A stretch of DNA of 64,000 nucleotides. Origin: Kineosporia corallincola (GTDB lineage: Bacteria; Actinomycetota; Actinomycetes; Actinomycetales; Kineosporiaceae). The number at the start of each line of letters is the position of its first letter. The first letter of the stretch is position 1. Location: NCBI RefSeq assembly GCF_018499875.1, contig NZ_JAHBAY010000008.1, forward strand, positions 248,001-312,000, read 5' to 3'. The notes under the pieces are model-generated. The model had not been told where the DNA came from, ran no database searches, and saw nothing but the letters and a program-made list of their open reading frames with translations. A program made the translations under genes and the position numbers. Positions 26,924 to 43,093 of this stretch are shown piece after piece.

Positions 26924-26945
26924 TAATGGCACGCTAATGGCACGG
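26924..26945 (+). repeat. Arm-type integrase site, left (two 11-bp units)
   Basis: Two tandem copies of TAATGGCACGC/G at exactly 11-bp spacing, 84 bp inside attL. The same 22 bases occur in the same orientation at 44270-44291, 70 bp inside attR. Paired direct repeats on both sides of the core are typical arm-binding sites of tyrosine integrases. Confidence 0.72.
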
Positions 26946-26954
26946 GGAGGAGCA

Positions 26955-26994
26955 AGACCAGCTGAAACAGTGGGGGGACTGTTTCAGCTGGTCT
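26955..26994. terminator. Strong hairpin near the left end of the element
   Basis: Perfect 17-bp stem AGACCAGCTGAAACAGT / ACTGTTTCAGCTGGTCT with a loop of six G. It may insulate the element from chromosomal read-through, or end transcription of the Xre-type gene whose stop is at 27174 on the minus strand. Confidence 0.75.
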
Positions 26995-27018: not shown

Positions 27019-27104
27019 GGGGACATTCTTCTCAAGGTGTCCCCGTAGGACGCGACGTCTGCGCAGGTCAGAGCGATTCGGGGACAGTGGGGACAGGGGG
27101 GACA
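27019..27104. repeat. GGGGACA iteron-like array, left
   Basis: GGGGACA at 27019 faces an inverted TGTCCCC at 27038; then three direct copies of GGGGACA start at 27080, 27089 and 27098, a 9-bp period. The same arrangement, in the opposite orientation, occurs at 42721-42827 before the excisionase gene. Confidence 0.75.
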
Positions 27105-27173
27105 CCTACCGGGCTGCTACGGCCGCCCGGAGCACCACCACAGCCAGCTGGCGGCTTCAGCGGCCTAACGCGC

Positions 27174-28406
27174 TCATCTCTGGCTGGCCAAGGTGCGCAA
27201 GCTGTCCAGGTAGTCACGAGCCGACGCTTCGTCTGCGTACCGATCGTTGACTACCGTGGCCAGATCGCGACTCACCATCAGTAGGGAGGGTAGAGACTTC
27301 CGTTCTCCGAGCAAGGCATGTTGCCCGTACGCAAGGGCCGAATCCAAGTCGCCTTGTCGTGCTGCGGCGACCCCCAGCGTGATGCGAGCCTCGGCGATGC
27401 GCATGGGAGAGCGTTCGGTTCCGTCAAAATCAGTTCCTGCGCGTATTACCTCATTGGCCAGAGACTCCGCCATGGCATCTTCTCCAAGAATTCGATAGCA
27501 ATCCATGGCGTAGAAATCAAATTTTGCCGGATCGACCACGAAATGATTATCGAGGTTTTCGGGATGTGGCAATCCCTCAAGAATTCTCCGCCCCTTGTCG
27601 AGAGCAACCTCGGTCTGTCGGCGGTCACCGATCCGCGCCCAAGCCTTTGCCTCTTGACCGAACAGCTGAACGGCGACGCTTTGATCGGCCGCCACCTCGC
27701 CGCCCGCTTTCGCGGCTGAGACAACCCCCCGATAATCACCGGTGGTCAGGGCGCCCCATGCCCGCATCTCATGTGCCCATCCAGAGATATGGGTATTTCC
27801 GGATTCCTGCCCAAGGGATAGTGCTGACTTCCGGGTTGCTTCGGAAACTCGCCGATCGCCTAGATCGTATTCGACGCACCCGACGAGGAGTGCGAGCCAG
27901 CCCGCGAGTGTCAGCACCTCTCGGTGCTGTGTCAAAGTGAGGCGTTGAGATTGCAAGGCAGCCAGACGGCTGAGCCAGTTACGTCCTTCCGTGAGCAGCT
28001 GCTCGGCAGGTAGATAGGCATATTCTGAGCAAAGACGATCCACCGTGATGCGTAATGCGTCGAGAGTGGCTTCGTCGACATCTGAGCGCTGCATTCGACT
28101 GACTATTTCAAGTGTTTCCATCCCGCTGATTTCCGCCACTTCGGTGGGTCCGTTCCGGTGGCCAGCTGTGGGAAATAAAGCTCGTGTTGCCGTGCCGAAG
28201 GTTGCTGCAATCAATGCCTGGTAACGCTCGCTGGGAAGCGTCTCTCCCGCTTCCCAGCGCTTCCATTGCCTGAGCAGGCTCGTGTCGTCCGGAAGTTCGC
28301 GTTCAGAGTGCAGACGCATGGAGCTTATTGCCGCCGACTGAGACCACCCGCGAATGCTTCGTTCCACGGTCATGCGCTTCGCCCAATGGGGCCGGTTGTC
28401 ACTCAT
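27174..28406 (-). CDS. Xre-like HTH regulator with TPR-type C-terminal domain
   Basis: A 410-residue protein. Residues 8-75 include an HTH-like region (TVERSIRGWSQSAAISSMRL ... RQWKRWEAGETLPSERYQAL, the WExG pattern typical of actinobacterial regulators) and the remaining ~300 residues are helical repeats resembling TPRs (for example ARQGDLDSALAYGQHAL). Such proteins in Streptomyces elements act as transcriptional regulators that may sense peptides or partner proteins. Base composition is lower in G+C than its neighbours. Candidate binding sites are the TGTCAC and GGGGACA repeats on either side of the gene. Confidence 0.75.
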   Translation of the reverse strand: MSDNRPHWAKRMTVERSIRGWSQSAAISSMRLHSERELPDDTSLLRQWKRWEAGETLPSERYQALIAATFGTATRALFPTAGHRNGPTEVAEISGMETLEIVSRMQRSDVDEATLDALRITVDRLCSEYAYLPAEQLLTEGRNWLSRLAALQSQRLTLTQHREVLTLAGWLALLVGCVEYDLGDRRVSEATRKSALSLGQESGNTHISGWAHEMRAWGALTTGDYRGVVSAAKAGGEVAADQSVAVQLFGQEAKAWARIGDRRQTEVALDKGRRILEGLPHPENLDNHFVVDPAKFDFYAMDCYRILGEDAMAESLANEVIRAGTDFDGTERSPMRIAEARITLGVAAARQGDLDSALAYGQHALLGERKSLPSLLMVSRDLATVVNDRYADEASARDYLDSLRTLASQR

Positions 28407-28473
28407 GCGAACGTCCTCTCTTCCGCCAGGCGTGCAAGGTGCTCATCGTTTCGGTGCAGGTGCGCAGAGGACA

Positions 28474-28525
28474 GTGACAAGTTGCCTGTCACCCCCTTGT
28501 CACCCCCCTGTCCGGCAATTGTCAC
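28474..28525. promoter_or_regulatory. Candidate operator: GTGACAA / TTGTCAC repeats
   Basis: Within the 182-bp gap upstream of the Xre-type gene: GTGACAA at 28474-28480, then direct TGTCACCCCC-like copies at about 28487 and 28498, and TTGTCAC at 28497-28503 and 28519-28525. The inverted and direct copies just upstream of the ATG at 28406 (minus strand) suggest an autoregulatory site. Confidence 0.5.
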
Positions 28526-28588
28526 TGACCATGACGAATCACTCCAAGGCAAGCTTCTCGACATGTTTCGGGCACAACGTAAGGGGGT

Positions 28589-28930
28589 TTAGTCGTGGAT
28601 TTCGAGGGCCTGAAGTCGCTCCGAGAGTCGCTGAACGTCCTCTCTGAGGGAGCGGACCTCTTGGGTCAACGACCCGATGTCGTCGGTTGGGATGGGTTGG
28701 CTCCGGGCCACGAAACTTCCTCGGTTCGGAGTGGTTTCGATCAGGCCTTCATCCCGCAGTAGGCGCAAGGCGTTCGTGATGGTCATCTGAGCAACTTCAA
28801 ATCGTTGGGCGAGATCGCGGATGGAGCGCAACCGCTGACCTGGCTCAAGGGAGCCGCCGGCGATGTCTTTCCGCAATGCATCGGCGACCTGGATGTAGGG
28901 CGGTCGGGGGTCATCGGCAGCCAGGCTCAT
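28589..28930 (-). CDS. GntR-family transcriptional regulator, short form (KorSA-like role)
   Basis: A 113-residue protein with a complete GntR winged helix (PPYIQVADALRKDIAGGSLE, PGQRLRSIRDLAQRFEVAQ, then MTITNALRLLRDEGLIETTPNRGSFV) and only a short C-terminal coiled coil (LTQEVRSLREDVQRLSERLQ) in place of a ligand domain. In pSAM2 the GntR protein KorSA represses transfer and replication; this one is much shorter but holds the equivalent place. It probably controls its own divergent promoter through the CTAG cluster at 28957-29010. Confidence 0.88.
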   Translation of the reverse strand: MSLAADDPRPPYIQVADALRKDIAGGSLEPGQRLRSIRDLAQRFEVAQMTITNALRLLRDEGLIETTPNRGSFVARSQPIPTDDIGSLTQEVRSLREDVQRLSERLQALEIHD

Positions 28931-28956
28931 ACACCAACCCTACATGTCAGCGCAAC

Positions 28957-29010
28957 CTAGCACGACCTAGAACTAGACCTTGCGATCTAGGTTGACCTAG
29001 TGCACGCTAG
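28957..29010. promoter_or_regulatory. CTAG-rich operator cluster in the GntR divergent promoter
   Basis: Six CTAG tetramers in 54 bp, starting at 28957, 28967, 28973, 28987, 28997 and 29007, mostly 10 bp apart (one helical turn). CTAGGT-TG-ACCTAG at 28987-29000 is a perfect inverted repeat. CTAG is normally rare in such DNA. The position between the gntR start (28930, minus) and the cargo operon (29068, plus) fits an operator bound by the GntR dimer. Confidence 0.7.
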
Positions 29011-29067
29011 AGCACAGCAGGAACGGCGAGGCGGACTGTCTCGCTCCAATCACCTACGGAGGCAAAC

Positions 29068-29313
29068 GTGCAGTTCAGAGAGGGTGATAACTGGCCACCG
29101 GGTCCGACCCGGCGTGAGCTTCGGGCGATCGAGGCCGAGTGGCCGTTGATCGAGCGGGAGCTGGCTGTCACGGACGCCGAGTCCGTGATCGCTGCGAACG
29201 GGCGTGAGGTCTCCGAGCTCGACTGGGCGCGGCTGCGTCGTGCCGAGGCCGAGCTGAACCGCATTTCGCGGGACCTCTTCAACCTGGCTGGTCCCTTGGG
29301 GGGTGCGGCGTGA
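29068..29313 (+). CDS. Small AICE protein, DUF6284-like
   Basis: An 81-residue soluble protein: TRRELRAIEAEWPLIERELAVTDAE followed by DWARLRRAEAELNRISRDL. The xxELxAIExExPLIxAE pattern and the C-terminal LRRAxxxxxR helix are like the DUF6284 family seen repeatedly as the first gene of Streptomyces AICE cargo operons; function unknown. The GTG start has CGGAGG upstream. It overlaps the next gene by four bases. Confidence 0.65.
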   Translation: MQFREGDNWPPGPTRRELRAIEAEWPLIERELAVTDAESVIAANGREVSELDWARLRRAEAELNRISRDLFNLAGPLGGAA

Positions 29314-29621
29314 GCGGCGCGGCGAGGGTGGCGCCTCGGCTTCTTGGTGAGGCGGTTGACCGTGTCGAGCGTGAGCGGGTTCAGCGGCTTCGTCGGTTGA
29401 TGGCTGGTCTGGGCGCTGCACTGGTGCTGGCCCCGCCGGTCGCCGGCGCGGTGCTGGCGGTGAGCGTCCCCGACGGTTCCCCGGCACCCGCCCCGGTGCC
29501 GGTGTCGGTCGTGCATCGGGTGGTCACGGCGAACTGCACGAACGGTCGTGTGCAGCACGGGGTCGACACCGGCCGGGCGGATGGGCTGCTGCTGGCGACC
29601 GACACCGGGGTGGCGTGCTGA
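29310..29621 (+). CDS. Small single-pass membrane protein, AICE cargo, unknown function
   Basis: A 103-residue protein with a basic N-terminus (DRVERERVQRLRRL), one transmembrane segment (GLGAALVLAPPVAGAVLAVSV) and a short outside tail with two cysteines (NCTNG and a terminal Cys). The GTG overlaps the previous stop (GTGA) and the stop overlaps the next ATG (TGATG), so all three are translationally coupled. No family recognised. Confidence 0.6.
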   Translation: MSGAARVAPRLLGEAVDRVERERVQRLRRLMAGLGAALVLAPPVAGAVLAVSVPDGSPAPAPVPVSVVHRVVTANCTNGRVQHGVDTGRADGLLLATDTGVAC

Positions 29622-30085
29622 TGCCGGTGCAGATGAGCCCTGACGTGGCCGAGGCCCTGGCCCGGGCGGTCGCCGGGATCGGTGGCCCGGTCGGGGTGAC
29701 GCTCGACCACCGGGCGGTGCCGATCGGGTCGGGCGAGTGGGTCACCTACCGGTACGGCCTGGCGCCGGCCGGGCTGGCCACCTTGCGGCAGCTGTCGGCG
29801 TTAGGCCTGCGTCCGGGTGGGTGCGTGCCGGTAGCGGCGCTGGCTCGTCCGAAGGGCCGGTGGGTGGCCTACCTGTACGCGGTGAGCACGGCGCGCCCGA
29901 AGCGGGCGATGACGCCGGCGAAGTGGGCGGCATTGGCCCGGGCGAACCGGGCGCGGCGGATCTGCCCGACCTGCGGGGCCGATGCCGGGTACGTGATTCC
30001 GCAGCGTCTGGGTGAGTGCGTGGAGTGCCACTACGGACCGGCCGAAACCATTTGTGAGAGCGACCAATTCGGGAAGGTGGCTTGA
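29621..30085 (+). CDS. RRQRL-motif-like zinc-binding AICE protein
   Basis: A 154-residue soluble protein. The mid-section (LATLRQLSALGLRPGGCVPVA, then AYLYAVSTARPKRAMTPAKWAAL) and the C-terminal two-knuckle zinc site (CPTCGADAGYVIPQRLGECVECH; C-x2-C and C-x2-C) match the arrangement of the proteins called RRQRL-motif zinc-binding in actinobacterial elements. Their role is not known; a nucleic-acid-binding function is plausible from the zinc knuckles. Start at ATG 29621, overlapping the previous stop. Confidence 0.68.
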   Translation: MPVQMSPDVAEALARAVAGIGGPVGVTLDHRAVPIGSGEWVTYRYGLAPAGLATLRQLSALGLRPGGCVPVAALARPKGRWVAYLYAVSTARPKRAMTPAKWAALARANRARRICPTCGADAGYVIPQRLGECVECHYGPAETICESDQFGKVA

Positions 30086-30088
30086 GGT

Positions 30089-31144
30089 ATGTGTGAGAAC
30101 GGGCAGACGTGCGCCGGTCAGGAAGCGTTCCGGGACGTCGTGAGGCGTTCGGAGCGTGACATTTTCGCGCGGCTCGCCGGGGCGCAGGAGGCGCTGACCG
30201 CGGCCGCGGAACTGCCGGCGTGGGACGCCGGCAGGGTCCTGTCGGCTGACAGCAGCCTGCACAGCGGGATCGGCCTGCACGTGAGCGGTCGTGAGCTGGG
30301 CTTTCAGCTCGCGGCGCGGCTGCTGCCGCAGACCCTGTGCCGCCGCGATTACACGACCATCCAAGGGGGTTTCGAGGGTTCGCCCGGGCGAGTGGTGCAC
30401 TTCACGGACTGGTACGGCACGTTCGGCGGACAGGCTCTGAACCTGACGGTGTCGTGGAACAGGCCACTGGTCGAGTCGGAACTGCCGGCGCAGGAACTGG
30501 CCGCGGGTGTTGCGGCGGGGTGGGCTGACCCGCAGAACGACCCGGCCGAGATCGACTGGTCGGCACGGCAGGCCCGGGCACTGATCCCGTTCTCCGTGTC
30601 CGACGACGGCCGGCCGTGCATTCCCGGGCCGAGCACGGGCATTCACCGGGGGCGTCATCAGATGGGCCGCTGGGGTGAGTCGGCGATGGCCGATGCGCTG
30701 GTCACGGCCGATCTGGGTGACGGGCAGCGGTGGCTGCTGCTGGTCGAGCGGGCCGACGGCAACGGGTGGGCGATGCCTGGCGGCGGGATCGAGCCGGGTG
30801 AGAGCCCGGCCGAGGCCGCGCAGCGGGAACTGGTCGAGGAGAGCGACCTGCGTCTGCCCGCGTCGTTCTTCGAGGCCGGGCAGCCGCAGCTGGTGCCGGA
30901 CCCGCGTGCCTCGGACGAGGCGTGGGCCGTGACCGTCGTGTGCCGCACCCACATGGACCGGCAGGCCCTGATCGACCGGGGCGTGGCCCGTCTGCCCGAG
31001 GTGCACGGCGCCGACGACGCCCGGCGCGCGGTCTGGCTGCCGGCCAACACGTACGTCGAGCTCACGCAGGCCCTGGCCCGCGACGCCGACGGAGGGCGCG
31101 TGTTCGCCGCCCACGTCGACATCCTCACCGCCGCTCTCGGCTGA
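30089..31144 (+). CDS. Nudix hydrolase-domain protein with extra N-terminal domain (possible Pif-like immunity factor)
   Basis: A 351-residue protein. Residues about 200-345 form a Nudix domain with a complete Nudix box, GGGIEPGESPAEAAQRELVE followed by ESDL (pattern G-x5-E-x7-R-E-x2-E-E), near residues 231-254. Residues 1-195 are a second domain of unknown family with TDWYGTFGGQALNLTVSW. In pSAM2 the Nudix protein Pif blocks redundant transfer between donors; the operon context is similar, so an immunity role is a reasonable inference, but Pif is smaller and a housekeeping nucleotide-hydrolase role cannot be excluded. It starts 3 bp after the zinc-binding protein gene. Confidence 0.8.
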   Translation: MCENGQTCAGQEAFRDVVRRSERDIFARLAGAQEALTAAAELPAWDAGRVLSADSSLHSGIGLHVSGRELGFQLAARLLPQTLCRRDYTTIQGGFEGSPGRVVHFTDWYGTFGGQALNLTVSWNRPLVESELPAQELAAGVAAGWADPQNDPAEIDWSARQARALIPFSVSDDGRPCIPGPSTGIHRGRHQMGRWGESAMADALVTADLGDGQRWLLLVERADGNGWAMPGGGIEPGESPAEAAQRELVEESDLRLPASFFEAGQPQLVPDPRASDEAWAVTVVCRTHMDRQALIDRGVARLPEVHGADDARRAVWLPANTYVELTQALARDADGGRVFAAHVDILTAALG

Positions 31145-31215
31145 CTCAAGGCAGCAAGACCCGCGGTTCTGTCCCATCAATCAACGAAATCCATTGATCA
31201 GAAGGAGAAAACGTC

Positions 31216-31392
31216 ATGGCATCGAAGGACGAGGCGGCGATGAAGAAGGTCTCGCAGGCCAGCCGCGAACTCACCGCGGCGCTCATGGAGTCGTACCGGA
31301 GCAAGCGTGTCGACGCTGCTGTCGAGGCGCTTCAGGCGGCCCGGAAGGCGGCCGGGCTGGATAGGCCGCGGAACGGTACGGCCGGTCAGTAG
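31216..31392 (+). CDS. Short helical AICE protein (58 aa)
   Basis: ATG at 31216 with GAAGGAG upstream opens a 58-codon frame beginning MASKDEAAMKKVSQASREL and ending at TAG 31390-31392. It is Ala/Lys/Arg-rich and predicted helical (AAVEALQAARKAAGLDR). Codon use follows the host G/C third-position bias and a hairpin terminator follows, supporting a real gene. No family recognised. Confidence 0.6.
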   Translation: MASKDEAAMKKVSQASRELTAALMESYRSKRVDAAVEALQAARKAAGLDRPRNGTAGQ

Positions 31393-31405
31393 CCGTAGCT
31401 GCACT

Positions 31406-31445
31406 CCGCCGGGCTGACCGCCTCCTACAGCTCCCAGCCCGGCGG
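31406..31445 (+). terminator. Hairpin terminator
   Basis: Perfect 11-bp stem CCGCCGGGCTG / CAGCCCGGCGG around an 18-base loop, 14 bases after the 58-codon gene. Confidence 0.65.
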
Positions 31446-31482
31446 GGCCACCCCATCCTCCTGTTGAGAGAAGGGCACCCCC

Positions 31483-31938
31483 ATGATGACCGATCCCACC
31501 GTGTTCGCTGCCGCCTTCGCCGCGCTGTTCGCCGCTCACCAGGTCGGGGACCACTGGGTCCAGACCGACCACGAGGCCGTGACCAAGGGCAAGCCCGGTT
31601 GCGCCGGCCACTTCGCGTGTGCCAGTCACGTGGTCAACCTGGCCGTGACGAAGCTGGTGTTCCTGACGGTGTTGATGCTGGCCACCGGGCTGCGCCCGCA
31701 CGTCGGGTTCCTGGCCCTGGGTCTGGTGATCGACGGCGCCTCGCATTACTGGGCCGACCGCCGGCACACGCTCGCGTGGCTGGCTGACCTGATTCCGGGC
31801 AAGAGCAAGTTCTACCGCCTCGGCGCCCCGCGCCCGGGTCACGACGACAACCCGAGCATCGGCACCGGCGCCTACGCGCTGGATCAGTCCTGGCACATCG
31901 GATGGCTTTTCGTCGCCGCCCTGATCATCTCTGCCTGA
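31483..31938 (+). CDS. DUF3307-like membrane protein
   Basis: A 151-residue membrane protein. The opening AAHQVGDHWVQTDHEAVTKG with an HxxxD-type pattern, a hydrophobic LVFLTVLMLATGL segment, then LVIDGASHYWADRRHTLAWL and the end AYALDQSWHIGWLFVAALI, resemble the DUF3307 group, whose histidine/aspartate residues line membrane helices. This version is often found in Streptomyces integrative elements; function unknown. ATG at 31483, with a second ATG at 31486 as alternative start. Confidence 0.7.
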   Translation: MMTDPTVFAAAFAALFAAHQVGDHWVQTDHEAVTKGKPGCAGHFACASHVVNLAVTKLVFLTVLMLATGLRPHVGFLALGLVIDGASHYWADRRHTLAWLADLIPGKSKFYRLGAPRPGHDDNPSIGTGAYALDQSWHIGWLFVAALIISA

Positions 31939-31992
31939 AACATCCTCCCGCACAGGCTGAAACATCAAGTCACGGAGAGAAGAGGAACAACG

Positions 31993-32187
31993 ATGCTGGT
32001 CAAGATCGTGATGATGCTCTGGATCCTCGCTCAGGGCGCCCCGCAGATGGCCCGGGGCCGCACCACGCCGGGCGCCTGCCGCAAGTGCTCCTGTCAGCAC
32101 CGGGGCGGGTGCCTGAGCTGCGGGTGCGACTGCCGTAGCAGCAACGGGTACGTGTGCCGCTGCTGCGGCGCCAACGACCGACAGTGA
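31993..32187 (+). CDS. Cys-rich small protein A (paralogue of 32230-32439)
   Basis: A 64-residue protein with a hydrophobic N-terminus (MLVKIVMMLWILAQG), then PQMARGR and a tail with ten cysteines in CxC, CxxC and CC spacing (CRKCSCQHRGGCLSCGCDC). It shares the order of parts and the PQMARG sequence with the next gene. The hydrophobic start could be a signal or anchor sequence; the cysteines suggest metal binding or disulfides. No known family recognised. Confidence 0.6.
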   Translation: MLVKIVMMLWILAQGAPQMARGRTTPGACRKCSCQHRGGCLSCGCDCRSSNGYVCRCCGANDRQ

Positions 32188-32229
32188 CGGCCAACGCTGA
32201 CCGAAAACCCTTTCTGGACGAACGAACCG

Positions 32230-32439
32230 ATGGGAATCGTCACCATGCTCAAGCTCGTGATCGCCCTGGCCGTCGCCGTCGTGTCCGGCCCGCAGATGGC
32301 CCGGGGGAAGGCCTGCGGCTGCCACTGCAACCACCCGAGGATGCGCGCCGGCCGGTGCTCGACCTGCGGCTGCGCATGCCCGAAGAAGCGCGGCGCCTGC
32401 GCCTGCTGCGGTGCCGCCTGGTGGGACCGCCGGAACTAG
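32230..32439 (+). CDS. Cys-rich small protein B (paralogue of 31993-32187)
   Basis: A 69-residue protein: hydrophobic N-terminus (MLKLVIALAVAVVSG), the shared PQMARGK, then nine cysteines (CGCHCNHPRMRAGRCSTCGC ... CACCGAAWW). Within the pair the spacing CxC-x6-9-C-x2-C-x-C-x-C-x6-8-CxCC is conserved, which argues for a retained fold. It lies 42 bp after its paralogue. Function unknown; metal sequestration or a surface role are both possible. Confidence 0.6.
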   Translation: MGIVTMLKLVIALAVAVVSGPQMARGKACGCHCNHPRMRAGRCSTCGCACPKKRGACACCGAAWWDRRN

Positions 32440-32495
32440 CAAAACCCTCGAACGCCTGAAACCGCACTCATACCAACGGGAAACGAGGAAGCGAC

Positions 32496-32687
32496 ATGGC
32501 GAGCAAGACCAGCACCACGACCGGTACCACGGCGAACGCCGCGAACAACGCGGGCGGGCACGTGAGCACGTGCGGCACGTGCGGGCTGACCAGTCTGCCG
32601 GCCAAGACCCGGGCGGAGCGGGCCGCGCTGGATAGCCGGCACGACCGGGAGCGGCACGGCGGCAGCACCGCCGGCAACCGCTGGTAG
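32496..32687 (+). CDS. Small AICE protein with one CxxC motif
   Basis: A 63-residue soluble protein: a Thr/Asn/Ala-rich start, then HVSTCGTCGLTSLPAKTRAE and a basic tail (HDRERHGG). The single CGTC could bind zinc as a dimer or act as a thiol pair. ATG is preceded by GAGGAAG. A strong hairpin follows at 32711-32740. No family recognised. Confidence 0.5.
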   Translation: MASKTSTTTGTTANAANNAGGHVSTCGTCGLTSLPAKTRAERAALDSRHDRERHGGSTAGNRW

Positions 32688-32710
32688 CAGGCATCACCAC
32701 GGGCGGGGTG

Positions 32711-32740
32711 GCCGGTCAGGTGGTTGCACACCTGACCGGC
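32711..32740 (+). terminator. Hairpin terminator before the DUF2637 gene
   Basis: Perfect 12-bp stem GCCGGTCAGGTG / CACCTGACCGGC with a 6-base loop, 24 bases beyond the preceding stop; it separates the small-protein block from the transfer block. Confidence 0.72.
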
Positions 32741-32818
32741 CGGGTGCTCCGCCGCTCACGGCAACAGGGCCCGTTCAGCGTACGCGGCGGGCCGGTCCAC
32801 GACGAGAGGAGAACCGTC

Positions 32819-34156: not shown

Positions 34157-34229
34157 CACGCGTCCCATCAACACTCATCGAAACATCGCCGGAACCGACG
34201 TAACAGGCTGACGGGGAAGGACATACGGC

Positions 34230-35054: not shown

Positions 35055-35147
35055 ACCCGACCACATCATCGGCCGGCCCCCGCACCCGCACCGCTCCGAT
35101 CCGCACCGATTACACCGATCCGCACCGTAGTGAAGGAGTGACATCTC

Positions 35148-37697
35148 ATGGCGAACGTGCTGCCGTTCGGTCGCCGTCCCGACCCGGACGACCCCGATCA
35201 GCATGGCGACCTGTCCGCGGACCCGTCCGGCACCGGGGCGGCGCCGGAAAGTGAGGGCTCTCTGGCCATCTCGCCCTACGCGGACACGGACGCCGCACCG
35301 GCCGCGCCGTCTACTTCGGCGCCCACACCGGACACCGGCGTGGCCACCGGCCGGGTGTCCGAGGCGGACGGGCGGGCGGACACGATTGAGGGCCCGATCT
35401 GGGGTTCTGCGGCCCCGTCGTCCGCCGCCGCGCCCAACGACGACGAGGCCGCTGTACGGCAGTTGCTGGCCCTGTACCGGGCCATGCCGGACCTGGCCCC
35501 TGGCCACGGCGCCCCGTCCGGTCCGGATGACCTGTCCGGTGAGACGACCGGTGAGACGACCGGGGATCTGTCCGCCGTGGTGGGCGGCGAGGTGGATGTT
35601 CCGGTGCTGGAGCCGGATCGGATCATCTCGCCGGCCGGTGCCGTTCAGGGGGCGGACCTGCGGCCGATCGTGCCGCAGTGGCTGTCTTCGCGTGAGGGCC
35701 GCAAGGCGGTGGGCCGCTGGTGGGTCGGGATGCAGTGGTACCGGGCCAAGTTCCACGGTGTCCGCGCGCCGGTGTACGTGGCGCGGGTGTTGTGGCGGGC
35801 GCCGCGGGGTGTGTGGCGGGTGACGTCGGGTCTGACCCGGTGGGTGCTGGACACCCGCGCGGACGGCCTCGAACAGGCCCTGGCCGACGGGACCAAGCTG
35901 GACACGATGACGTTCATTCAGCTGCGTGACCAGCGTGCGATCCGGGTGCGCGCCCGGCTGATCACCGTGGGGGCGGGTGCGGTCACCAGCGCCGCGGCCG
36001 GGGTGGTGGCGCTGGTGCATCTTCCGGCGTCCGGTGACGTGCTGCTGGGTGCGGCCACGGTGGCGGTGCTGGCCAAGGTGGGTTCGGACAAGGATCGGCC
36101 CCTGGTCGGTGCGGCCATGGCCACCTCGGCGCGGCACCGGGAGCTGACCGACGCGATCGTGATGCGGGCCCTGCGGGCGGCCGGTCTGGGCGGCGCGGTG
36201 GCGAAGATCGACAAGGAGGGTCATGAGGTGTCTGAGGACACCCGTCCGACCCTGGCCGCGCCGATCATGCGCTCGGGTAACGGGCGTGGGTACGTGGTGG
36301 TCGTCGACCTGCCGTGGGGCAAGACGGCCGGGGATGCTGCGGCGGCGGTCGAGAAGCTGGCCTCGGGCCTGGATGTCGATGTGTCGCAGGTGTTCCCGGA
36401 GCCGGTGGCCGGGCGGGCGCGTCGGGTCGAGATGTACGTGGCCGATGAGGACCCGATGCTGTTGCCGGCCAGCCGTTCTCCGCTGGCGCGTCTGCCGCGC
36501 GCCAGTGTCTGGGACCCGCAGCCGCTGGCGCGCACCCCGCTGGGCATCGAGGTCCGGGCCACGTTGCTGTTCAACTCGTTCCTGCTGGGTGCGCTGCCGC
36601 GCTCGGGCAAGTCGTACGCGGCCAAGTGCCTGGTCACCCCGGCCGTACTGGACCCGTACTGCGATCTGACCGTGCTGGACTGCGGTGGCGGACGTGACTG
36701 GCTGCCCACGCAGGACATCGCCGTGGACTACGTGGCCGGCGACGAGGAAGAGGACCTGATCCGGATCGTCGCGATCCTCAACCGCATTCGCGACGAGGCA
36801 CGCCAGCGGCTCGCTCAGTTCCGGACCATGACGCAGGCCGACATGCCCGAGGACAAGCTGACGCGCGAGTTGGCCGCCAGGGGCATGCCCCCGCACGTGG
36901 TCGTGGTCGACGAGCTTCAGAACTTGCTGCGCGCCAACAACAAAGAGATCCGTAAGGCGGCGCTGGAGGTTCTGGTGTGGCTGGCCAAGACGGCCCCGAA
37001 GGCCGGGTACATCATGGTGATGATCACGCAGCGCCCGGCGGCGGACGTGATCCCCTCGGACCTGCGTGACATCACCAGCGTGCGGGTGGCTCTGCGGACC
37101 AAGACCCGCCAGGGATCGGATGCCGTTCTCGGGTCGGACATCTCGGCCACCGGATACCGGACGGACCGGTTCCTGGAGAACCACAAGGGCGCCGCGGTCA
37201 TCGGGGGCATCTCCAACGGCAAGGGCGGTGACCTTCAGGTCGTGCGCGTGGACCTGCTGATGCCCGAGGAGTTCGCCCGGGCCTGCGCCATCGGCCGCAC
37301 GCGCCGCGAGGACGCCGGCACCCTGCGCGGCGCCGCGATCGGGGACGCCGCCCCGGTCGAAATCACCATCACCGTGCTGGAAGACGTCGCCGCCGTGTGG
37401 CCCGGCGACGAGGCCAAGGTGCACGCCGCCGTCATCCTGACTCGGCTCAAGGAGCTGTACCCCTCCCGTTATGAGGGCATGGCCGACGAGACCGCCCTGA
37501 CCCGCGCCCTCAAGCCCTACGGCATCACCTCCGGTCAGGTTTCCCGGGGCGGCGTCAACCGCAACGGCTACAAGCTCGCCGACATCCGCAAGGCCTGGCG
37601 GGCCCGCCAGGCCGCCGACCGCACCGACGAGACCGACGACACCGATCGCGGCCACCGCGACGGAGACGACGACGGACCCACCCCCGTCCCCGCCTAA
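35148..37697 (+). CDS. FtsK/SpoIIIE-type conjugative DNA translocase (TraB/TraSA-like)
   Basis: An 849-residue motor protein. After a Pro/Asp-rich N-terminus, two membrane helices lie near residues 265-310 (ITVGAGAVTSAAAGVVALVH and the segment after it). The ATPase core has Walker A LLGALPRSGKS near residues 480-490, Walker B HVVVVDELQN near 583-592 and DLRDITSVRVALRTKTRQGS after it; the C-terminus (about 790 onward) could be a small DNA-binding winged helix. One such hexameric translocase moves double-stranded element DNA between mycelia in AICEs. ATG has GAAGGAG upstream. The CTAG-rich region just downstream may hold its recognition (clt) site. Confidence 0.92.
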   Translation: MANVLPFGRRPDPDDPDQHGDLSADPSGTGAAPESEGSLAISPYADTDAAPAAPSTSAPTPDTGVATGRVSEADGRADTIEGPIWGSAAPSSAAAPNDDEAAVRQLLALYRAMPDLAPGHGAPSGPDDLSGETTGETTGDLSAVVGGEVDVPVLEPDRIISPAGAVQGADLRPIVPQWLSSREGRKAVGRWWVGMQWYRAKFHGVRAPVYVARVLWRAPRGVWRVTSGLTRWVLDTRADGLEQALADGTKLDTMTFIQLRDQRAIRVRARLITVGAGAVTSAAAGVVALVHLPASGDVLLGAATVAVLAKVGSDKDRPLVGAAMATSARHRELTDAIVMRALRAAGLGGAVAKIDKEGHEVSEDTRPTLAAPIMRSGNGRGYVVVVDLPWGKTAGDAAAAVEKLASGLDVDVSQVFPEPVAGRARRVEMYVADEDPMLLPASRSPLARLPRASVWDPQPLARTPLGIEVRATLLFNSFLLGALPRSGKSYAAKCLVTPAVLDPYCDLTVLDCGGGRDWLPTQDIAVDYVAGDEEEDLIRIVAILNRIRDEARQRLAQFRTMTQADMPEDKLTRELAARGMPPHVVVVDELQNLLRANNKEIRKAALEVLVWLAKTAPKAGYIMVMITQRPAADVIPSDLRDITSVRVALRTKTRQGSDAVLGSDISATGYRTDRFLENHKGAAVIGGISNGKGGDLQVVRVDLLMPEEFARACAIGRTRREDAGTLRGAAIGDAAPVEITITVLEDVAAVWPGDEAKVHAAVILTRLKELYPSRYEGMADETALTRALKPYGITSGQVSRGGVNRNGYKLADIRKAWRARQAADRTDETDDTDRGHRDGDDDGPTPVPA

Positions 37698-37729
37698 CCA
37701 CAACACTCACTCAGAGTAGCCGTTCCGGG

Positions 37730-37891
37730 CTAGGAGAAGCCTCGGCCACTAGAGGCCAGCGACCTCTAGGGCTAGAGGCACCCCTAGACACGCCCACCCA
37801 CCCTGACCAGTCACCTAGACCCTAGACCTGACCTGCACAAATACGCCGAGAACCCGATTCGGAGGGGAAATGACCCCGACCCTAGCCCTAG
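37730..37891. promoter_or_regulatory. CTAG-rich cluster downstream of the translocase gene (operator or clt candidate)
   Basis: Nine CTAG tetramers start at 37730, 37749, 37766, 37772, 37784, 37815, 37822, 37882 and 37888. A perfect inverted repeat CTAGAGG-N7-CCTCTAG lies at 37749-37769, and CCTAGAC occurs three times between 37783 and 37827. The cluster fills most of the 172-bp gap and runs into the next gene. It resembles the cluster in the gntR promoter; it may be an operator for the same GntR protein or the transfer-origin repeats recognised by the translocase. Confidence 0.6.
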
Positions 37892-38124
37892 CCCTGACCA
37901 GCACGCTCGTCACGCTCGGTTACGTTCTGGCCTGCCGGATCTGGCCCTACGCCAACTGCTGGAAGTGCTCCGGCGCCGGCCGATTCCGCTCCCCCTCGGG
38001 CCGCGCATGGCGCCTGTGCCGACGCTGCTCCGGCTCCGGCGCCCGCCTGCGGATCGGCCGGCGCCTGTGGAACCTCGCCGCCCGCGAACTCGGCCGCACC
38101 CGCGACCCGCGCTCACCCCACTGA
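37870..38124 (+). CDS. Small membrane-anchored zinc-knuckle protein
   Basis: An 84-residue protein with one N-terminal hydrophobic helix (TLALALTSTLVTLGYVLAC) and two DnaJ-like CxxCxG knuckles, CWKCSGAGR and CRRCSGSGAR, followed by a basic tail. Proteins with this layout recur in Streptomyces AICEs; their role is unknown. ATG has GGAGGGG upstream. It is the first gene of a run to 42777 with short gaps or overlaps. Confidence 0.65.
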   Translation: MTPTLALALTSTLVTLGYVLACRIWPYANCWKCSGAGRFRSPSGRAWRLCRRCSGSGARLRIGRRLWNLAARELGRTRDPRSPH

Positions 38125-38144
38125 ATGACCAAGGAGAAACCGCC

Positions 38145-38558
38145 ATGACCATGACCAGCAAAACGGCCCGCTGCTGGGTCCTGCGCAGCACCTCCGCCAC
38201 TCCCGCCGACCAGATGCCCACCGAGTACGGCCCGACCCACCGGCACCACACCGGCCAGGACACCGCCTGCGCCGCGCTGCGGGGCCTGATCGACGAAGAC
38301 CCCGTCTACTTCAGCACCTTTGAGGTGATCGCCCTCGACCACGTGTGCGTTTTCGTGACCTGCGACGAATGCGGCACCGCGATCGGGCGGGAGGACGAAG
38401 GCGTGACCTTTCACTACCCCGACCCGGGCGAGGCCAAGCAATGGGCCACCGGGTGGGGGTGGAAGACCAACGGGCACCGGTGGGTGTGCGGGTACTGCCA
38501 GGAGGAACACCCGATGCCCGAGAGCGGCCCGGTGTCACGGAAGGAGAACCACCGATGA
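38145..38558 (+). CDS. Zinc-ribbon protein P1 (paralogue of 39094-39552)
   Basis: A 137-residue soluble protein. A C-terminal ribbon is formed by CDECGTAIG and, about 40 residues later, HRWVCGYCQEEH, giving C-x2-C ... W-x-C-x2-C, with a spacer containing FHYPDPGEAKQWATGWGW. The same frame of residues occurs in the protein at 39094-39552. ATG follows AAGGAG; the stop overlaps the next start (ATGA). Function unknown. Confidence 0.65.
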   Translation: MTMTSKTARCWVLRSTSATPADQMPTEYGPTHRHHTGQDTACAALRGLIDEDPVYFSTFEVIALDHVCVFVTCDECGTAIGREDEGVTFHYPDPGEAKQWATGWGWKTNGHRWVCGYCQEEHPMPESGPVSRKENHR

Positions 38559-39094
38559 GCAACCTCACGACCACGACCATGGCGACGGCCGAGAACGCCG
38601 TACGCGTGCTGGTGACCGGTTCGCGCGACTGGAGTGACGCCGAGGCGATCACCCTGCATCTGGAGGGCCTGCGCTACGTCGCCGGTCGGGTTCAGCGGCC
38701 CGGTCTGGTCGTCGTGCACGGTGCCTGCCCCACCGGTGCCGACGCGATCGCCGCGGCGTGGGCTCGCGCCCACGACGTGCCGGTCGAGGCTCACCCGGCC
38801 CAGTGGGCCACTCACGGGCGGGCGGCCGGGCCGCTGCGCAACCGGGCGATGGTCACGGCCGGCGCTGACGTGTGTGTGGCGTTCATCCTGAACGGCTCCC
38901 GGGGTGCCACCGGGTGCGCCGATCTGGCCGAAGCGGCCGGCATCCCGACCTACCGCATCACGCGGCCGGGACGGGCGTGCGGGCGGCCCGAGGAGTCGTG
39001 GGAGATCCGCGGCGGCATCGCCCAGGGACTGTCCCCGCGCTGCGGGGGCGCCGAGTCGCTGCCGTGCCCGCGCCACGGAGAGGAGGTCCGCTGA
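38555..39094 (+). CDS. SLOG-family protein (DUF2493-like)
   Basis: A 179-residue protein whose first 130 residues are a Rossmann-like SLOG domain: VRVLVTGSRDWSDAEAI, then VVVHGACPTGADAIAAAWA and a GPLRNRAMV block. SLOG proteins bind nucleotide-derived ligands and are frequent in phage, mobile-element and defence loci. A Cys/Pro-rich tail follows. Both ends overlap neighbours (ATGA with P1, TGATG with the second ribbon protein), so the three are made together. Confidence 0.85.
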   Translation: MSNLTTTTMATAENAVRVLVTGSRDWSDAEAITLHLEGLRYVAGRVQRPGLVVVHGACPTGADAIAAAWARAHDVPVEAHPAQWATHGRAAGPLRNRAMVTAGADVCVAFILNGSRGATGCADLAEAAGIPTYRITRPGRACGRPEESWEIRGGIAQGLSPRCGGAESLPCPRHGEEVR

Positions 39095-39552
39095 TGTGTG
39101 AGAGCTTCCTGGACCGGTTGTGCTGGGTCCTGCGTGCGCCGGCCGTCACGCCCGAGGCGGGCACGGCCGATCGGGCCGGTGGGGCCGATGAGGGGGAGTG
39201 CTGCTACCTCGACCGGGTCTCGGCCGAGGCGGACTGGGCGCGAATGATGCGTGAGGGCCTGGCCGGTCGGGGTGACGTCGATTACGTGAAATCGTTGACT
39301 GCGTACCAGCTTCCGGTGCCGTGCATGATCCTCGCCTGCGATGTCTGTGACACCGAGCTGGGAGTCGGCTACGAGGGCACCGCCTACCACCTGCGCGACG
39401 ACGCCGAGGCGCAGTACATCGCCGGGCTGGAGGGGTGGTCGCGCGAGGGGCGCCGCTGGATGTGTCATGTCTGCCGGCCCGGCGGAGCGTCCCGGAGCGT
39501 TGGTGCGCCGGTGAGTTCGGTGGAGCAGCTCATGGTCGAGGTGCCCGGATGA
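39094..39552 (+). CDS. Zinc-ribbon protein P2 (paralogue of 38145-38558)
   Basis: A 152-residue soluble protein with an acidic N-terminus and a C-terminal ribbon: CDVCDTELG, a spacer with AYHLRDDAEAQYIAGLEGW, and RRWMCHVCRPGG. Its spacing and its W-x-C-x2-C end are those of P1, though overall identity is modest. Start at ATG 39094 overlapping the SLOG stop; stop overlaps the primase-polymerase start (ATGA). Function unknown. Confidence 0.65.
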   Translation: MCESFLDRLCWVLRAPAVTPEAGTADRAGGADEGECCYLDRVSAEADWARMMREGLAGRGDVDYVKSLTAYQLPVPCMILACDVCDTELGVGYEGTAYHLRDDAEAQYIAGLEGWSREGRRWMCHVCRPGGASRSVGAPVSSVEQLMVEVPG

Positions 39553-40982
39553 GCTTGAGCGATCGCCCTCACAGGCCACCGGCTTGGGTGTTCGGCCCGC
39601 TGGTGGCCTGTGAGGGCGGCCTCTTGAACGGCCAGTGGTTCACCGGGGCCGACTGGGAGGCACGACGCCGGGCGGCGGATCGGATGGCCGAACGCGGGCA
39701 GCGGCCGGCCGACAGCCATTACGCCCCCACCGGCCAGAGCATCCCTCACCGGTTGTGGCCCCAGGCCCGCGGCGAGGTCTGGGCCGCCACCAACACCAAA
39801 AGTTCTGCGGCGGAGAAAGTCATGCGCGATCCCGTCGCCCTGGTCTTCCCCGTCGACCTGGCACCGCAATCCCTCGACACCGATCCGTCCACCGTCCGTC
39901 CCACACCTTTGGAGGTCACCGTGAACCGAGCGAGCACGCTCCCCTCGACCCGGGGCACCGCGGGCACCACCCGGCGCGATCAGTTGGTGCCGGCTGCGCT
40001 GGCCTATGCCGCACGAGGCTGGCACGTCTTCCCCCTGCGGGTGGGGGACAAGCGCCCCGCGTTCCCCGACCACGCTGCCGACCGGTGCACCGGCCGTGAC
40101 CCGCGCTGCCGGCGTGCCGGGCGGCACGTGACCTGGGAGGAGAGGGCGACCACCGACCCGGCCCGGATCCGCGCGGCGTGGACGTCGGCCCCGTACGGCA
40201 TCGGGATCGCCACCGGTCCCTCCGGGCTGCTGGTGATCGACCTCGACCAGCCCAAGCCCGACCGCGGCGGCGCGATTGAGCGCCCGCCGACGGAGTTCGA
40301 CGAACCCGGGATCACCGATGGCGCAGATGTGTTCGCCGCACGGTGCGCGCGCGCCGGGCACCCCGCCCCGCTCGACACATACACCGTCAGCACCGGCAGT
40401 GGCGGCACCCACCTGTACTTCATCGCCCCCACTGGCCCCAAGGCGCCCGAACTGCGCTGCACCGCAGGACATCTGGGGTGGCTGATCGACACCCGCGCGC
40501 ACGGCGGCTATGTGGTCGCGGCACCCTCGACTGTGGCCGGACGCGCCTACCTCGCAGACGACCCCGACGCCGGTGCTGCCCCGCTGCCCGGATGGCTGGC
40601 CGACGCTCTCACCCCGGCGCCGCTGCCCGCTCAGGTGCCGGCCCCGATCAACCTCCGGACCGGCGGTGCCGGTGGGAACGAGCGAATGCGCGCCTACCTC
40701 GAATCGGCGATGAACGGCGCGGTGCAGGCCGTGCATGCGGCGCCGGGCGGGCAGCGCAACCGGGCCGTGTACGGCGCCGCGGTTCAACTCGGGCAGCTCG
40801 TGGCCGGCGGCGCCCTGACGGCTGAGACCGTGCGTGCTGCGTTGCTGTCAGCAGCGATCACCGTCGGGCAATCCGAGGCCGAGGCCGTCCGAACGATCGC
40901 CTCGGGGATGCGCAACGGTGCCGGACGTCCTCGGTACGTGCCCGACAGCCCGGCCTCACCGGCCCGTGGGAGGGCGGCATGA
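39549..40982 (+). CDS. Bifunctional DNA primase-polymerase (RepPP-type replication protein)
   Basis: A 477-residue protein. A prim-pol domain runs from about residue 146: ALAYAARGWHVFPLRVGDKR, then GIGIATGPSGLLVIDLDQPK with the acidic metal-binding residues and SGGTHLYF, which is the typical H-containing block. A helical C-terminal domain (NERMRAYLESAMNGAVQAV) follows. The first 124 residues are unrelated; a GTG at 39921 with GGAGG upstream lies exactly at the domain junction, so a shorter prim-pol protein may also be made. With the ATPase at 41671 it forms the replication module used by the circular form of the element. Confidence 0.86.
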   Translation: MSLSDRPHRPPAWVFGPLVACEGGLLNGQWFTGADWEARRRAADRMAERGQRPADSHYAPTGQSIPHRLWPQARGEVWAATNTKSSAAEKVMRDPVALVFPVDLAPQSLDTDPSTVRPTPLEVTVNRASTLPSTRGTAGTTRRDQLVPAALAYAARGWHVFPLRVGDKRPAFPDHAADRCTGRDPRCRRAGRHVTWEERATTDPARIRAAWTSAPYGIGIATGPSGLLVIDLDQPKPDRGGAIERPPTEFDEPGITDGADVFAARCARAGHPAPLDTYTVSTGSGGTHLYFIAPTGPKAPELRCTAGHLGWLIDTRAHGGYVVAAPSTVAGRAYLADDPDAGAAPLPGWLADALTPAPLPAQVPAPINLRTGGAGGNERMRAYLESAMNGAVQAVHAAPGGQRNRAVYGAAVQLGQLVAGGALTAETVRAALLSAAITVGQSEAEAVRTIASGMRNGAGRPRYVPDSPASPARGRAA

Positions 40983-41674
40983 GCCTGCCGACACTCTTGG
41001 CTGCGCCGGAGGTGGGGCCACGGCTGGTGGACCTGTGCTGCTGTCAGGGTGGCGCATCCCGCGGCTACACCGATGCTGGGTTCGTCGTGACCGGGGTCGA
41101 CATCTTCCCGCAACCGCGGTACCCGTACCCGTTCCACCAGGCGGACGCCATCGAGTTCGCTGCCCAGCATGGGGCTGGGTTCGATGCGATCGCGGCATCA
41201 TTCCCGTGCCAGGCATACACCGCCTGCTGGCAGATCCAGCGCCGTGAGCATCCCCAGCTGATCGACATCGGGCGCGAAGTGCTCAACAGGACGGGGCGCC
41301 CGTGGGTGATGGAGAACGTCCCCGGTGCCCCACTGCACGATCCGGTCGAGCTGTGCATGTGCATGTTCACCAGCGAACCGGGCACCTACCGACCGCGCTG
41401 GTTTGAGACCGGAGGCGGCTTCATCCTGCCCCGGATGGAGCACCGCCCGCACACCAAGAAGCACACCAAGATGGGCCGCCCGCCGCGCCCGGACGAGGTG
41501 ATGCACGTGGTCGGAAACTTCTCCGGCGTCGCCGCCGCGCGCGCTGCGATGGGCATCGACTGGATGACCAGAGACGGCCTGCGCGAGGCAATTCCGCCCG
41601 TCTACACCCGCTGGATTGGTGAGCATCTCATCGCCCATCTCGCGGCATGCAGCACCAAAAGGAGCGCAGCATGA
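40979..41674 (+). CDS. Short C5-cytosine DNA methyltransferase, orphan
   Basis: A 231-residue methyltransferase. Motif I is LVDLCCCQGGASRGYTDAGF (SAM binding), motif IV is SFPCQAYT with catalytic Cys77, and motif VI is MENVPGAP with Glu112. The length is short for the family and the target-recognition part is small, as in phage-encoded enzymes. No restriction endonuclease is adjacent, so it may protect the element from host restriction. It overlaps both the primase-polymerase and the ATPase genes by four bases (ATGA). Confidence 0.88.
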   Translation: MSLPTLLAAPEVGPRLVDLCCCQGGASRGYTDAGFVVTGVDIFPQPRYPYPFHQADAIEFAAQHGAGFDAIAASFPCQAYTACWQIQRREHPQLIDIGREVLNRTGRPWVMENVPGAPLHDPVELCMCMFTSEPGTYRPRWFETGGGFILPRMEHRPHTKKHTKMGRPPRPDEVMHVVGNFSGVAAARAAMGIDWMTRDGLREAIPPVYTRWIGEHLIAHLAACSTKRSAA

Positions 41675-42777
41675 ACGAGCACGACCCCTATGAGGACGGG
41701 CCCCCGCCCGAGATCGAGGCGCCGCCGAGCCGTCACCTGCAAGCCGTCACCCCGGACCGGCCGCGATGGCGCCCGCAGTTGTGGGGCGCCGATCGGATCA
41801 TGGCGACCGAGTTCCCCGCGCCGAAGTGGGCCGTGCCCGGTCTGCTCTGCGAAGGAGTGTCCCTGCTGGCCGGGCCGCCCAAGGTTGCCAAGTCGTGGTG
41901 GCTGCTGTCGGTCTGCCTCGCGGTCGCTTCCGGCGGCCGGGCACTCGGGGCGATTCCGGTCCGCAAGGGGCCGGTGCTGTATCTGGCGCTGGAAGACACC
42001 CCGCGCCGGCTGAAGTCCCGCATGGGTCAGTTGCTCGGTGACACCCCCGCCCCGCCCGGGCTGGAGTTGGCAACGGAGTGGCCGACCATGCCGGCCGGTG
42101 GGGACGTGGCGATCGCCGATTGGCTCGACCGGCACCCCGACGCCCGGATGATCGGCATCGACGTGTTCGCCAAAGTCCGCGGGCCGGCATCGCCTTCGCT
42201 GTCGGCCTACGACGCCGATTACGCGGCCGTCGGACGGATCAAGAAGATCGCCGACCAGTACGGCATCGCCATCGTCCTGATCCACCACGTGCGCAAGGCC
42301 GGCAGCGAGGACTTCCTTCAGGAAGTCAGCGGCACCAACGGCATTGCCGGGGCGGCCGACGCCACCCTCATCCTGAAGCGCGCCCGTGGTCAGGCCGACG
42401 GCACCCTGTCGATCACCGGTCGCGACGTCGAAGAGACCGAGATCGCCCTGACTCATGACCAGAACACCGGCCACTGGCTCAAGACCGACGCGCCAGCCGA
42501 TGAGGCCAAGCTCGGTGACACCCGCGCCGCGATCCTCAAACACCTCCGCCAAGAAGGAAAACCCCTCGGACCGACCGCCGTCGCCAAGGGCACCGGCATC
42601 GACGTCGGGAACGTCAAGAAGACCATGCAGCGCATGAGCGACGCCGGCCAGATCTGGCCCGTCACCAACGGCCGATACGAAGCCCCACCGGCCGGAGCAC
42701 AGCCGTTCCCCGATATCAGTGGGGACATCGGCACCGGGGGTGTCCCCACTGTCCCCCCTGTCCCCGAAACCTTCTGA
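41671..42777 (+). CDS. RecA-like AAA ATPase / RepA-type helicase
   Basis: A 368-residue ATPase of the hexameric RepA/AAA_25 group. Walker A is LLAGPPKVAKSW (residues 67-78), the Walker B region is RMIGIDVFAKVRG, and IVLIHHVRKAG is the sensor-like block; the C-terminus (ILKHLRQEGKPLGPTAVAKG, then VGNVKKTMQRM) is a winged helix. It probably unwinds the replicating element for the upstream primase-polymerase. ATG 41671 has AAAAGGAG upstream and overlaps the methyltransferase stop. The 3' end of the gene overlaps the GGGGACA array. Confidence 0.85.
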   Translation: MNEHDPYEDGPPPEIEAPPSRHLQAVTPDRPRWRPQLWGADRIMATEFPAPKWAVPGLLCEGVSLLAGPPKVAKSWWLLSVCLAVASGGRALGAIPVRKGPVLYLALEDTPRRLKSRMGQLLGDTPAPPGLELATEWPTMPAGGDVAIADWLDRHPDARMIGIDVFAKVRGPASPSLSAYDADYAAVGRIKKIADQYGIAIVLIHHVRKAGSEDFLQEVSGTNGIAGAADATLILKRARGQADGTLSITGRDVEETEIALTHDQNTGHWLKTDAPADEAKLGDTRAAILKHLRQEGKPLGPTAVAKGTGIDVGNVKKTMQRMSDAGQIWPVTNGRYEAPPAGAQPFPDISGDIGTGGVPTVPPVPETF

Positions 42778-42827
42778 CCAGCGAGAACGCCCCGCACGAC
42801 GGGGACACCTCGGCGGGAGGTGTCCCC
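42721..42827. repeat. GGGGACA iteron-like array, right (inverted relative to the left array)
   Basis: GGGGACA at 42721, then TGTCCCC at 42741, 42750 and 42759 (9-bp period), then the perfect inverted repeat GGGGACACCT-N7-AGGTGTCCCC at 42801-42827. It overlaps the end of the ATPase gene and the promoter region of xis. Its mirror image lies at 27019-27104. Confidence 0.78.
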
Positions 42828-42856: not shown

Positions 42857-43093
42857 GTGAAGACCACGAACCGGAGCGACAGGACGTCGGGCCCCGAGTT
42901 CTTGACCACTGAACAGGCGGCCGAGCGAGTGGGGCTCAGCGCCCGGCAGGTGCGGCGCCTCATTGCCGAGCGGCGGATCGGGTTCTACCGCGCTGGCCGG
43001 TCGGTGCGAATCGACCCGGCCGAAATCATCGACTACATGCTCGCTGGGCGTGTAGAGCCAATTACGGAAACTTATGTGAGAGAGCATCTTTAG
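42857..43093 (+). CDS. xis: Excisionase (MerR-like HTH, Xis)
   Basis: A 78-residue DNA-binding protein with a helix-turn-helix of the excisionase type: FLTTEQAAERVGLSARQVRR then LIAERRIGFYRAGRSVRI. The GTG at 42857 is preceded by GGAGGTG. It lies 9 bp before int, and its promoter region contains the iteron array, which is a plausible control site. It would direct the integrase towards excision. Confidence 0.85.
   Translation: MKTTNRSDRTSGPEFLTTEQAAERVGLSARQVRRLIAERRIGFYRAGRSVRIDPAEIIDYMLAGRVEPITETYVREHL

Follow-up and report, generated by a model that had tools for sequence, protein, structure and literature searches.

When a self-loading helicase carries a DNA-binding domain at its C-terminus, replication begins at iterons adjacent to the gene that encodes it, as outlined in part in PMC7581432 and in general background. 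In the Rep-ori of Staphylococcus aureus pathogenicity islands (SaPI) and in Cch2 of the staphylococcal cassette chromosome mec (SCCmec), as far as the relevant parts of PMC7581432 describe them, the C-terminal domain of the initiator helicase binds short iterons directly 3′ of its gene, and a primase or primase-polymerase (Prim-Pol) is encoded nearby. A comparable arrangement occurs in an element of Kineosporia corallincola that resembles the actinomycete integrative and conjugative elements (AICEs); it lies in a 64,000-nucleotide stretch of contig NZ_JAHBAY010000008.1 (positions 248,001 to 312,000; hereafter the window) and is bounded by 43-bp att repeats at 26798 and 44362 of the window. Here, too, a predicted C-terminal DNA-binding domain and an array of short repeats (GGGGACA) stand at the 3′ end of an ATPase gene (41647–42777, +; Pfam AAA_25, E 1.1e-31), with a Prim-Pol gene nearby (39435–40982, +; Pfam PF09250, E 2.5e-40; start codon uncertain). 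The proposed initiator or helicase is, however, a RecA-fold AAA_25 protein similar to RepA, unlike the SaPI Rep helicase family (DUF927 or D5-like, that is, D5/SF3, in the same parts of PMC7581432), and a second, mirrored array lies across attP. We consider it likely from sequence comparison that both arrays are iterons for the element's own AAA_25 ATPase and constitute the two arms of its replication origin, and we file them with the iteron/self-loading-helicase origins, as a variant thereof.

The ATPase domain resembles the hexameric helicase RepA of plasmid RSF1010, which was its sole match by sequence in the PDB (1g8y, E 1e-5; matches up to E 0.1 considered) and ranked first in a Foldseek search with the predicted structure (E 9.2e-4), winged-helix domains also being among the matches; the model as a whole is poor (mean predicted local distance difference test (pLDDT) score 52, five sequences). 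The iterons of RSF1010 are bound by a separate protein, RepC, whereas in the window element a single protein comprises both the ATPase and the predicted DNA-binding domain. As in AICEs of the RepPP type such as SLP1, a Prim-Pol gene precedes a replication gene and the att site lies in a tRNA gene; SLP1 has two regions important for replication, yet the account of it in the pertinent parts of PMC3218068 is without iterons, the word 'iteron' occurring 0 times in the main text. The window element further combines a tyrosine Int, an Xis, a Prim-Pol with adjacent Rep and an FtsK-like Tra, the last assigned on weak-to-moderate matches, and thus has the features of a RepPP-type AICE. Compared by its description in parts of PMC3583192, the Streptomyces plasmid pWTY27 similarly encodes a Prim-Pol, RepB, together with a RepA protein, which binds direct (GTGGGAAC) and inverted repeats in an iteron region, but this is one region of 300 bp, and RepA is described there as hypothetical. 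Likewise, the replication protein of pRN1 unites primase, helicase and winged helix and has a putative origin just 3′ of its gene, although, according to sections of PMC4234260, that origin is a stem-loop of approximately 100 nt and the helicase is of the SF3 type. No description of iterons flanking attP in an AICE was found in the titles and abstract openings of the open-licence PMC papers listed by literature searches.

Both mirror-layout arrays that a preliminary description of the window had reported were located as exact sites. The left array (27019–27104) holds five, namely an inverted pair (27019+, 27038−) and three direct copies (27080+, 27089+, 27098+), and the right array (42721–42827), which runs across the 3′ end of the ATPase gene (stop codon 42775–42777), holds six (42721+, 42741−, 42750−, 42759−, 42801+ and 42821−), arranged as one inverted pair, the second site of which also opens a 9-bp triple, together with a further inverted pair. 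The reported make-up of one inverted pair and three copies at a 9-bp period thus applies to the left array, whereas the right one has six sites rather than five; similarly, the right array does mirror the left in layout, as had been claimed, but not completely, as one expected outer left site, at approximately 27118, is missing in the window (it is present in the related element G005, below). With 15 copies in the window, the motif occurs at chance level (16.25 in shuffles, s.d. 3.73), yet 11 of the 15 fall within these two stretches of 86 and 107 bp, and it is the arrangement of the sites, not their copy number, that exceeds chance. The spaced pair pattern GGGGACANNGGGGACA occurs four times in the 8,202,634-base assembly, all four in the two arrays, and its reversed control 0 times in the same whole assembly. 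In the circular form, the att repeats give the order right array, xis, int, attP, left array, which agrees with the earlier proposal that the arrays enclose xis-int-attP, and the two would lie approximately 1,755 bp apart.

The ATPase is encoded in four of six genomes of the genus (that of the window included) and in four of 13 genomes of the family (those six among them), and five Kineosporia elements were found: the window element, G001, G002a, G002b and G005. Both arrays are present in all five; their absence from close relatives, which the preliminary description had named among the grounds for refutation, was thus checked and not observed. In the four siblings, the ATPase is 76–82% and the Prim-Pol 70–75% identical to that of the window, whereas TraB either goes undetected or matches over part of its length with no more than 28% identity, and no Int match was found in three siblings (E 1e-3), the fourth Int being 28% identical over 57%; the Int of G005 has a weak Phage_integrase match, under the cut-off. 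G001 has NsdA-like (86%) and GntR (70%) proteins in common with the window, and no match to the former was found in G002a, G002b or G005 (E 1e-3); the window Xis, apart from array-coded residues, is undetected at E 1e-3 in three of the four siblings. Array motif and spacing were retained despite the undetected Int, Xis and NsdA-like proteins. As Int and TraB have been replaced or have diverged strongly while the ATPase and Prim-Pol were kept, the arrays follow the replication genes. By eye, a conserved stretch between the iterons can be recognised in both arrays: on the right it contains the stop codon of the ATPase gene, whereas its left-hand copy lies outside that gene. The right array of G002b is weaker (no strict run in the strict scan; 18/21 in mirror-arm scoring), and four of the elements occupy three different tRNA genes (Gly, Arg twice and Pro; the site of G001 is unmapped). 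In G002b (locus L018), the int frame between right array and attR appears, by eye, to be disturbed, with a LacI-like helix-turn-helix stretch inside integrase-like sequence.

These comparisons bear on the idea that the arrays control recombination, as Int or Xis sites or as operators for the GntR or NsdA-like regulators. The right array does lie just upstream of xis-int, and both arrays are near att; we nevertheless regard such a role as very improbable, given that the arrays do not go with Int or Xis and retain motif and spacing in the three siblings without detectable window Int, Xis and NsdA-like proteins, that in the window the left array is flanked by the ends of two genes (int and the NsdA-like gene) rather than placed at a gene start, and that a separate tandem, TAATGGCACG, adjoins both att sites. 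The 22-bp unit of this tandem beside attL (26924–26945, +) recurs exactly beside attR (44270–44291, +), and these tandems are probable integrase arm-type sites, separate from the arrays. As candidate readers of the arrays, Xis, Int, the GntR and NsdA-like regulators and TraB are all disfavoured by the sibling comparison.

Beyond the genus, an array is a general feature of this AAA_25 ATPase family. The ATPase was searched for in 394 genomes of the class (13 matches at E 1e-30) and in two families, one represented by 250 genomes (19 matches at E 1e-60) and the other by 249 (38 matches at E 1e-60). Distant members served as queries for another two families, with 11 matches in 201 genomes and 4 in 199; plasmids and phages were also searched, and eight plasmid records matched. 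Loci were taken from part of the matches (at most 30 from the family with 38 matches; from 82 phage records matched, one, L125, was included), and the survey comprises 62 first-round and 20 later rows, among which L135 equals L029 and L134 carries the array of L121. When a triple of 7-mers at 8–9 bp with a score of at least 17/21 was required after the winged helix, several short direct repeats beside the replication gene, as at iteron origins, were found at the ATPase gene 3′ end in 46 of 54 close loci and in 23 of 28 distant rows (21 of 26 distinct), against 0/54 and 0/28 further upstream in the same genes; shuffles passed in 3.1% (close) and 0.9% (distant) of cases. We relied on this survey rather than on a first periodicity test, in which scores averaged 4.8 for period 9 and at most 3.3 for periods 7, 8 and 10–14, because period 9, the best in 36/62 array regions, was also the best in 20/62 coding controls (the commonest there); under strict equal spacing, 26/62 loci passed a 1% shuffle test. 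The repeat motif varies among loci (TGTCCCC, TGTCCGG, TGTCACA, TGTCTGAA, TGTTGAAA and others), and arrays are also found at a terminase-linked locus (L030) and on plasmids L121 and L122. The latter, the 8.3-kb plasmid pATHE01, has a single gene that fuses Prim-Pol, AAA_25 and winged helix and contains six exact ATTCACTCT repeats at a 9-bp period inside its coding sequence. A Prim-Pol is also encoded by plasmid pFP11 and by a Streptomyces longwoodensis plasmid, neither of which is among the eight plasmid records matched by the ATPase, and a scan of viral_contigs gave a single weak match (26%). In the Firmicute elements L124 and L125, which lie beside tetracycline-resistance genes, 9-bp GGTGACAGC runs follow the related ATPase gene.

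The ATPase very probably reads the arrays, because the repeat sequence follows residues of its predicted recognition helix (residues 320–332, including Lys324 and Lys325; codons at 42604–42642, +), which is the third helix of the winged helix in the AlphaFold model (block pLDDT approximately 70–87). For this comparison 41 close loci among the 62 first-round loci were scored, 16 of the 62 without a clear winning motif and five more below 49% identity being left out; among the loci without a clear winner, the expected motif shares first place in L024 and L061, and L039, L042, L045, L048 and L074 show no array there. In the strand reading TGTCCCC (that is, GGGGACA), Gln at residue 325 accompanies GTCA in 8/8 loci and Lys or Arg accompanies GTCC in 33/33, and of residues 40–345 none but 325 and 345 distinguishes loci with A from those with C as the base after GTC; Lys324 accompanies GTCCCC in 14/14 loci and Arg324 in 1/27, so that 40/41 are predicted. 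Among 23 held-out loci (some from genomes matched earlier), 20 could be scored; the base after GTC was right in 19/20 and the GTCCCC prediction in 20/20, the latter including zero positive cases. An ATPase of a Paracoccaceae metagenome-assembled genome, 38% identical but with the identical helix VKKTMQRM, is followed by a TGTCCCC triple. Among distant loci, identical or nearly identical helices share the same motif: AGTYLRR occurs with GTCTGAA (L128 and L137), AGRYLRR with GTCCGAA (L026, L132 and L133), AGTYLGR with GTTGAAA (L027, and L131 in two of its three repeats) and DQYL with GTCAGAA (L028). Thr at the same place of the helix corresponds to T after GTC in L128 and L137 but to GTTG in L027, and the simple rule is therefore limited to the close group. 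In a mutual-information ranking, high-entropy and array-coded tail columns come top, with residues 324, 328 and 325 at ranks 9, 10 and 21 of 317.

This dependence on the helix also speaks against a conjugation site (clt, the cis-acting locus of transfer, or TRS, the TraB recognition sequence) bound by the TraB/FtsK-like translocase (35148–37697, +; NCBIfam plasmid_TraB, E 2e-4, weak and under cut-off; PHROG FtsK/SpoIIIE-like, E 1.1e-22). Streptomyces clt loci do consist of short direct and inverted repeats bound by Tra, according to parts of PMC3583192, and most other close elements examined have a TraB match of 26–33%. However, the array does not go with TraB, as G005 and G819 have both runs although the window TraB has no match there at E 1e-3, and the terminase-linked and plasmid arrays likewise count against this function, which we judge highly unlikely. 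A somewhat less remote but still unlikely alternative is that binding by the ATPase is mainly regulatory (repression of xis-int, copy control by pairing, or partition); the right array overlaps the xis-int leader, and pairing between the two cis-located arrays is conceivable, by analogy with the handcuffing of iterons. An origin role is favoured over this by the relationship to the RepA helicase, by Prim-Pol as neighbour or fusion partner and by arrays beside genes other than int (terminase in L030; plasmid pATHE01).

The second arm was sought within 3 kb inside attL using each element's own motif (200 shuffles, p floor 0.005; the per-element motifs for the left and right scans were set by hand). 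A mirrored array lies 0.2–2.3 kb inside attL in all 13 close elements with mapped att (window included), and in each the mirror-oriented triple outscores the same orientation (p 0.005–0.015 in 12 and 0.055 in Nonomuraea). A strict scan gave left runs in 12 of 25 regions, and a distant mirrored run was seen in four close elements without mapped att (G686, G760, G698 and Kineosporia G001); the regions of G497 and G327 end too early to judge the left side. In G394, in which int adjoins attL and is not beside the ATPase gene, no mirror array was found near attL (p 0.96). Among distant loci, an inverted run of at least two sites lies within 160 bp in 16/23 rows (14/21 distinct; null 0.2%), and one of at least three sites in 9/21 distinct loci, compared with 11/46 and 1/46, respectively, in close loci; the distant set includes plasmids L121 and L122, the terminase-linked L030 and L131 (weak HNH match). 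It is possible, though we doubt it, that the right array alone is the origin and the left a spare or decaying inverted duplicate, as six sites make up the right array, a run at the ATPase gene recurs in 46 of 54 close loci and the left array of the window has lost a site; against this, the left copy is retained and mirrored in the 13 mapped elements, in each element's own motif. In the G626 region (L081, 1704–3230), left-end sequence and a tRNA-Arg copy repeat the right end, and this region is probably two elements in tandem.

Several observations weigh against an origin formed by two ATPase-bound arms. The loci are related (effective number approximately 22 of 41), and on a tree of the ATPase domain only, the motif changed at least 13 times, five of these branches also changing residue 325 (10 changes); the tree-aware test is only moderate, with residue 325 at rank 3 of 164 columns (uncorrected p 0.008). 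High ranks are also reached by columns of the ATPase domain, 218 being second, and the top seven also hold winged-helix columns 314, 322, 328, 316 and 320. Held-out locus L163 breaks the code. Eight of 54 close and five of 26 distinct distant loci fall under the array threshold, although in four of these five (L123, L124, L125 and L141) a repeat run is visible once alignment-anchored. No left run or cluster was found in G659, G730, G524 or G620, nor was an att repeat. Finally, no clear AT-rich melting stretch lies between the arms in six elements (lowest 60-bp GC 0.42–0.53), and GC is as low or lower elsewhere in each of them.

Taken together, comparison of sequences shows conservation of the arrays, their mirror layout, their association with the ATPase and the covariation of motif and helix. 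The earlier suggestion that they are origin iterons at which the Prim-Pol/ATPase pair acts is strongly supported by such comparison (sibling association, covariation and the family-wide array). We envision that the C-terminal winged helix of the RepA-like ATPase would bind TGTCCCC, that excision would bring the arms face to face across xis-int-attP, and that the ATPase would assemble or load on the 9-bp-spaced iterons of the excised circle, with Prim-Pol providing primers; the element would then replicate as a circle, presumably with participation of both arms. Replication coupled to excision fits the array geometry. Given that the arms are separate in close elements and side by side in many distant loci, plasmids and a terminase-linked locus among them, and given the layout of G394, we tentatively raise the further, less probable idea of a split, integration-switched origin in which the arms moved apart in AICEs, with attP between them. 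Integration would leave one arm at either end of the element and disable the origin, excision would bring them within 2–3 kb and license replication, and the recombination event itself would be the on-switch, no regulator being required.

With regard to the remaining features, attL (26798–26840) duplicates 43 bp at the 3′ end of tRNA-Gly(ccc) and is a direct repeat of attR (44362–44404), which lies inside that tRNA gene (44362–44434). A perfect 16-bp inverted repeat (26955–26994; AGACCAGCTGAAACAG ... CTGTTTCAGCTGGTCT) between attL and the left array would lie downstream of int in the circle and may be a terminator. For the arrays themselves, an RNA or terminator hairpin was rejected as main function, as in G002a and G005 the pair before xis keeps GGGGACA with no long stem (by eye); DnaA boxes are disfavoured by the motif changes that follow the ATPase, no search for DnaA boxes having been made. 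The NsdA-like TPR regulator gene (27174–28406, −; NCBIfam NF053720, E 2.3e-25), the end of which points to the left array, lies at lower coordinates than the GntR regulator gene (28589–28930, −; Pfam GntR, E 7.4e-17). Between Prim-Pol and ATPase lies a methylase-like open reading frame (40979–41674; weak Pfam matches), which has a 47% match in G001 and none in the other 24 regions compared. The xis-like HTH_17 gene (42857–43093, +; Pfam HTH_17, E 1.3e-10; start predicted within a reading frame open from 42719) precedes the tyrosine integrase gene (43103–44272, +; Pfam Phage_integrase, E 6.3e-15), and the element also encodes Nudix and SpdB-like DUF2637 proteins.

The arrays provide a candidate origin for a class of actinomycete integrative elements that lacks one in the survey PMC3218068, as far as its pertinent parts go. 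The correspondence between helix residues and the bases after GTC is proposed as a readable protein–DNA code that predicts iterons from protein sequence, and its specificity suggests how elements could keep distinct incompatibility groups. The proposed origin also suggests, in a form open to experiment, how an element that carries replication genes could be kept from firing while it is integrated in the chromosome.

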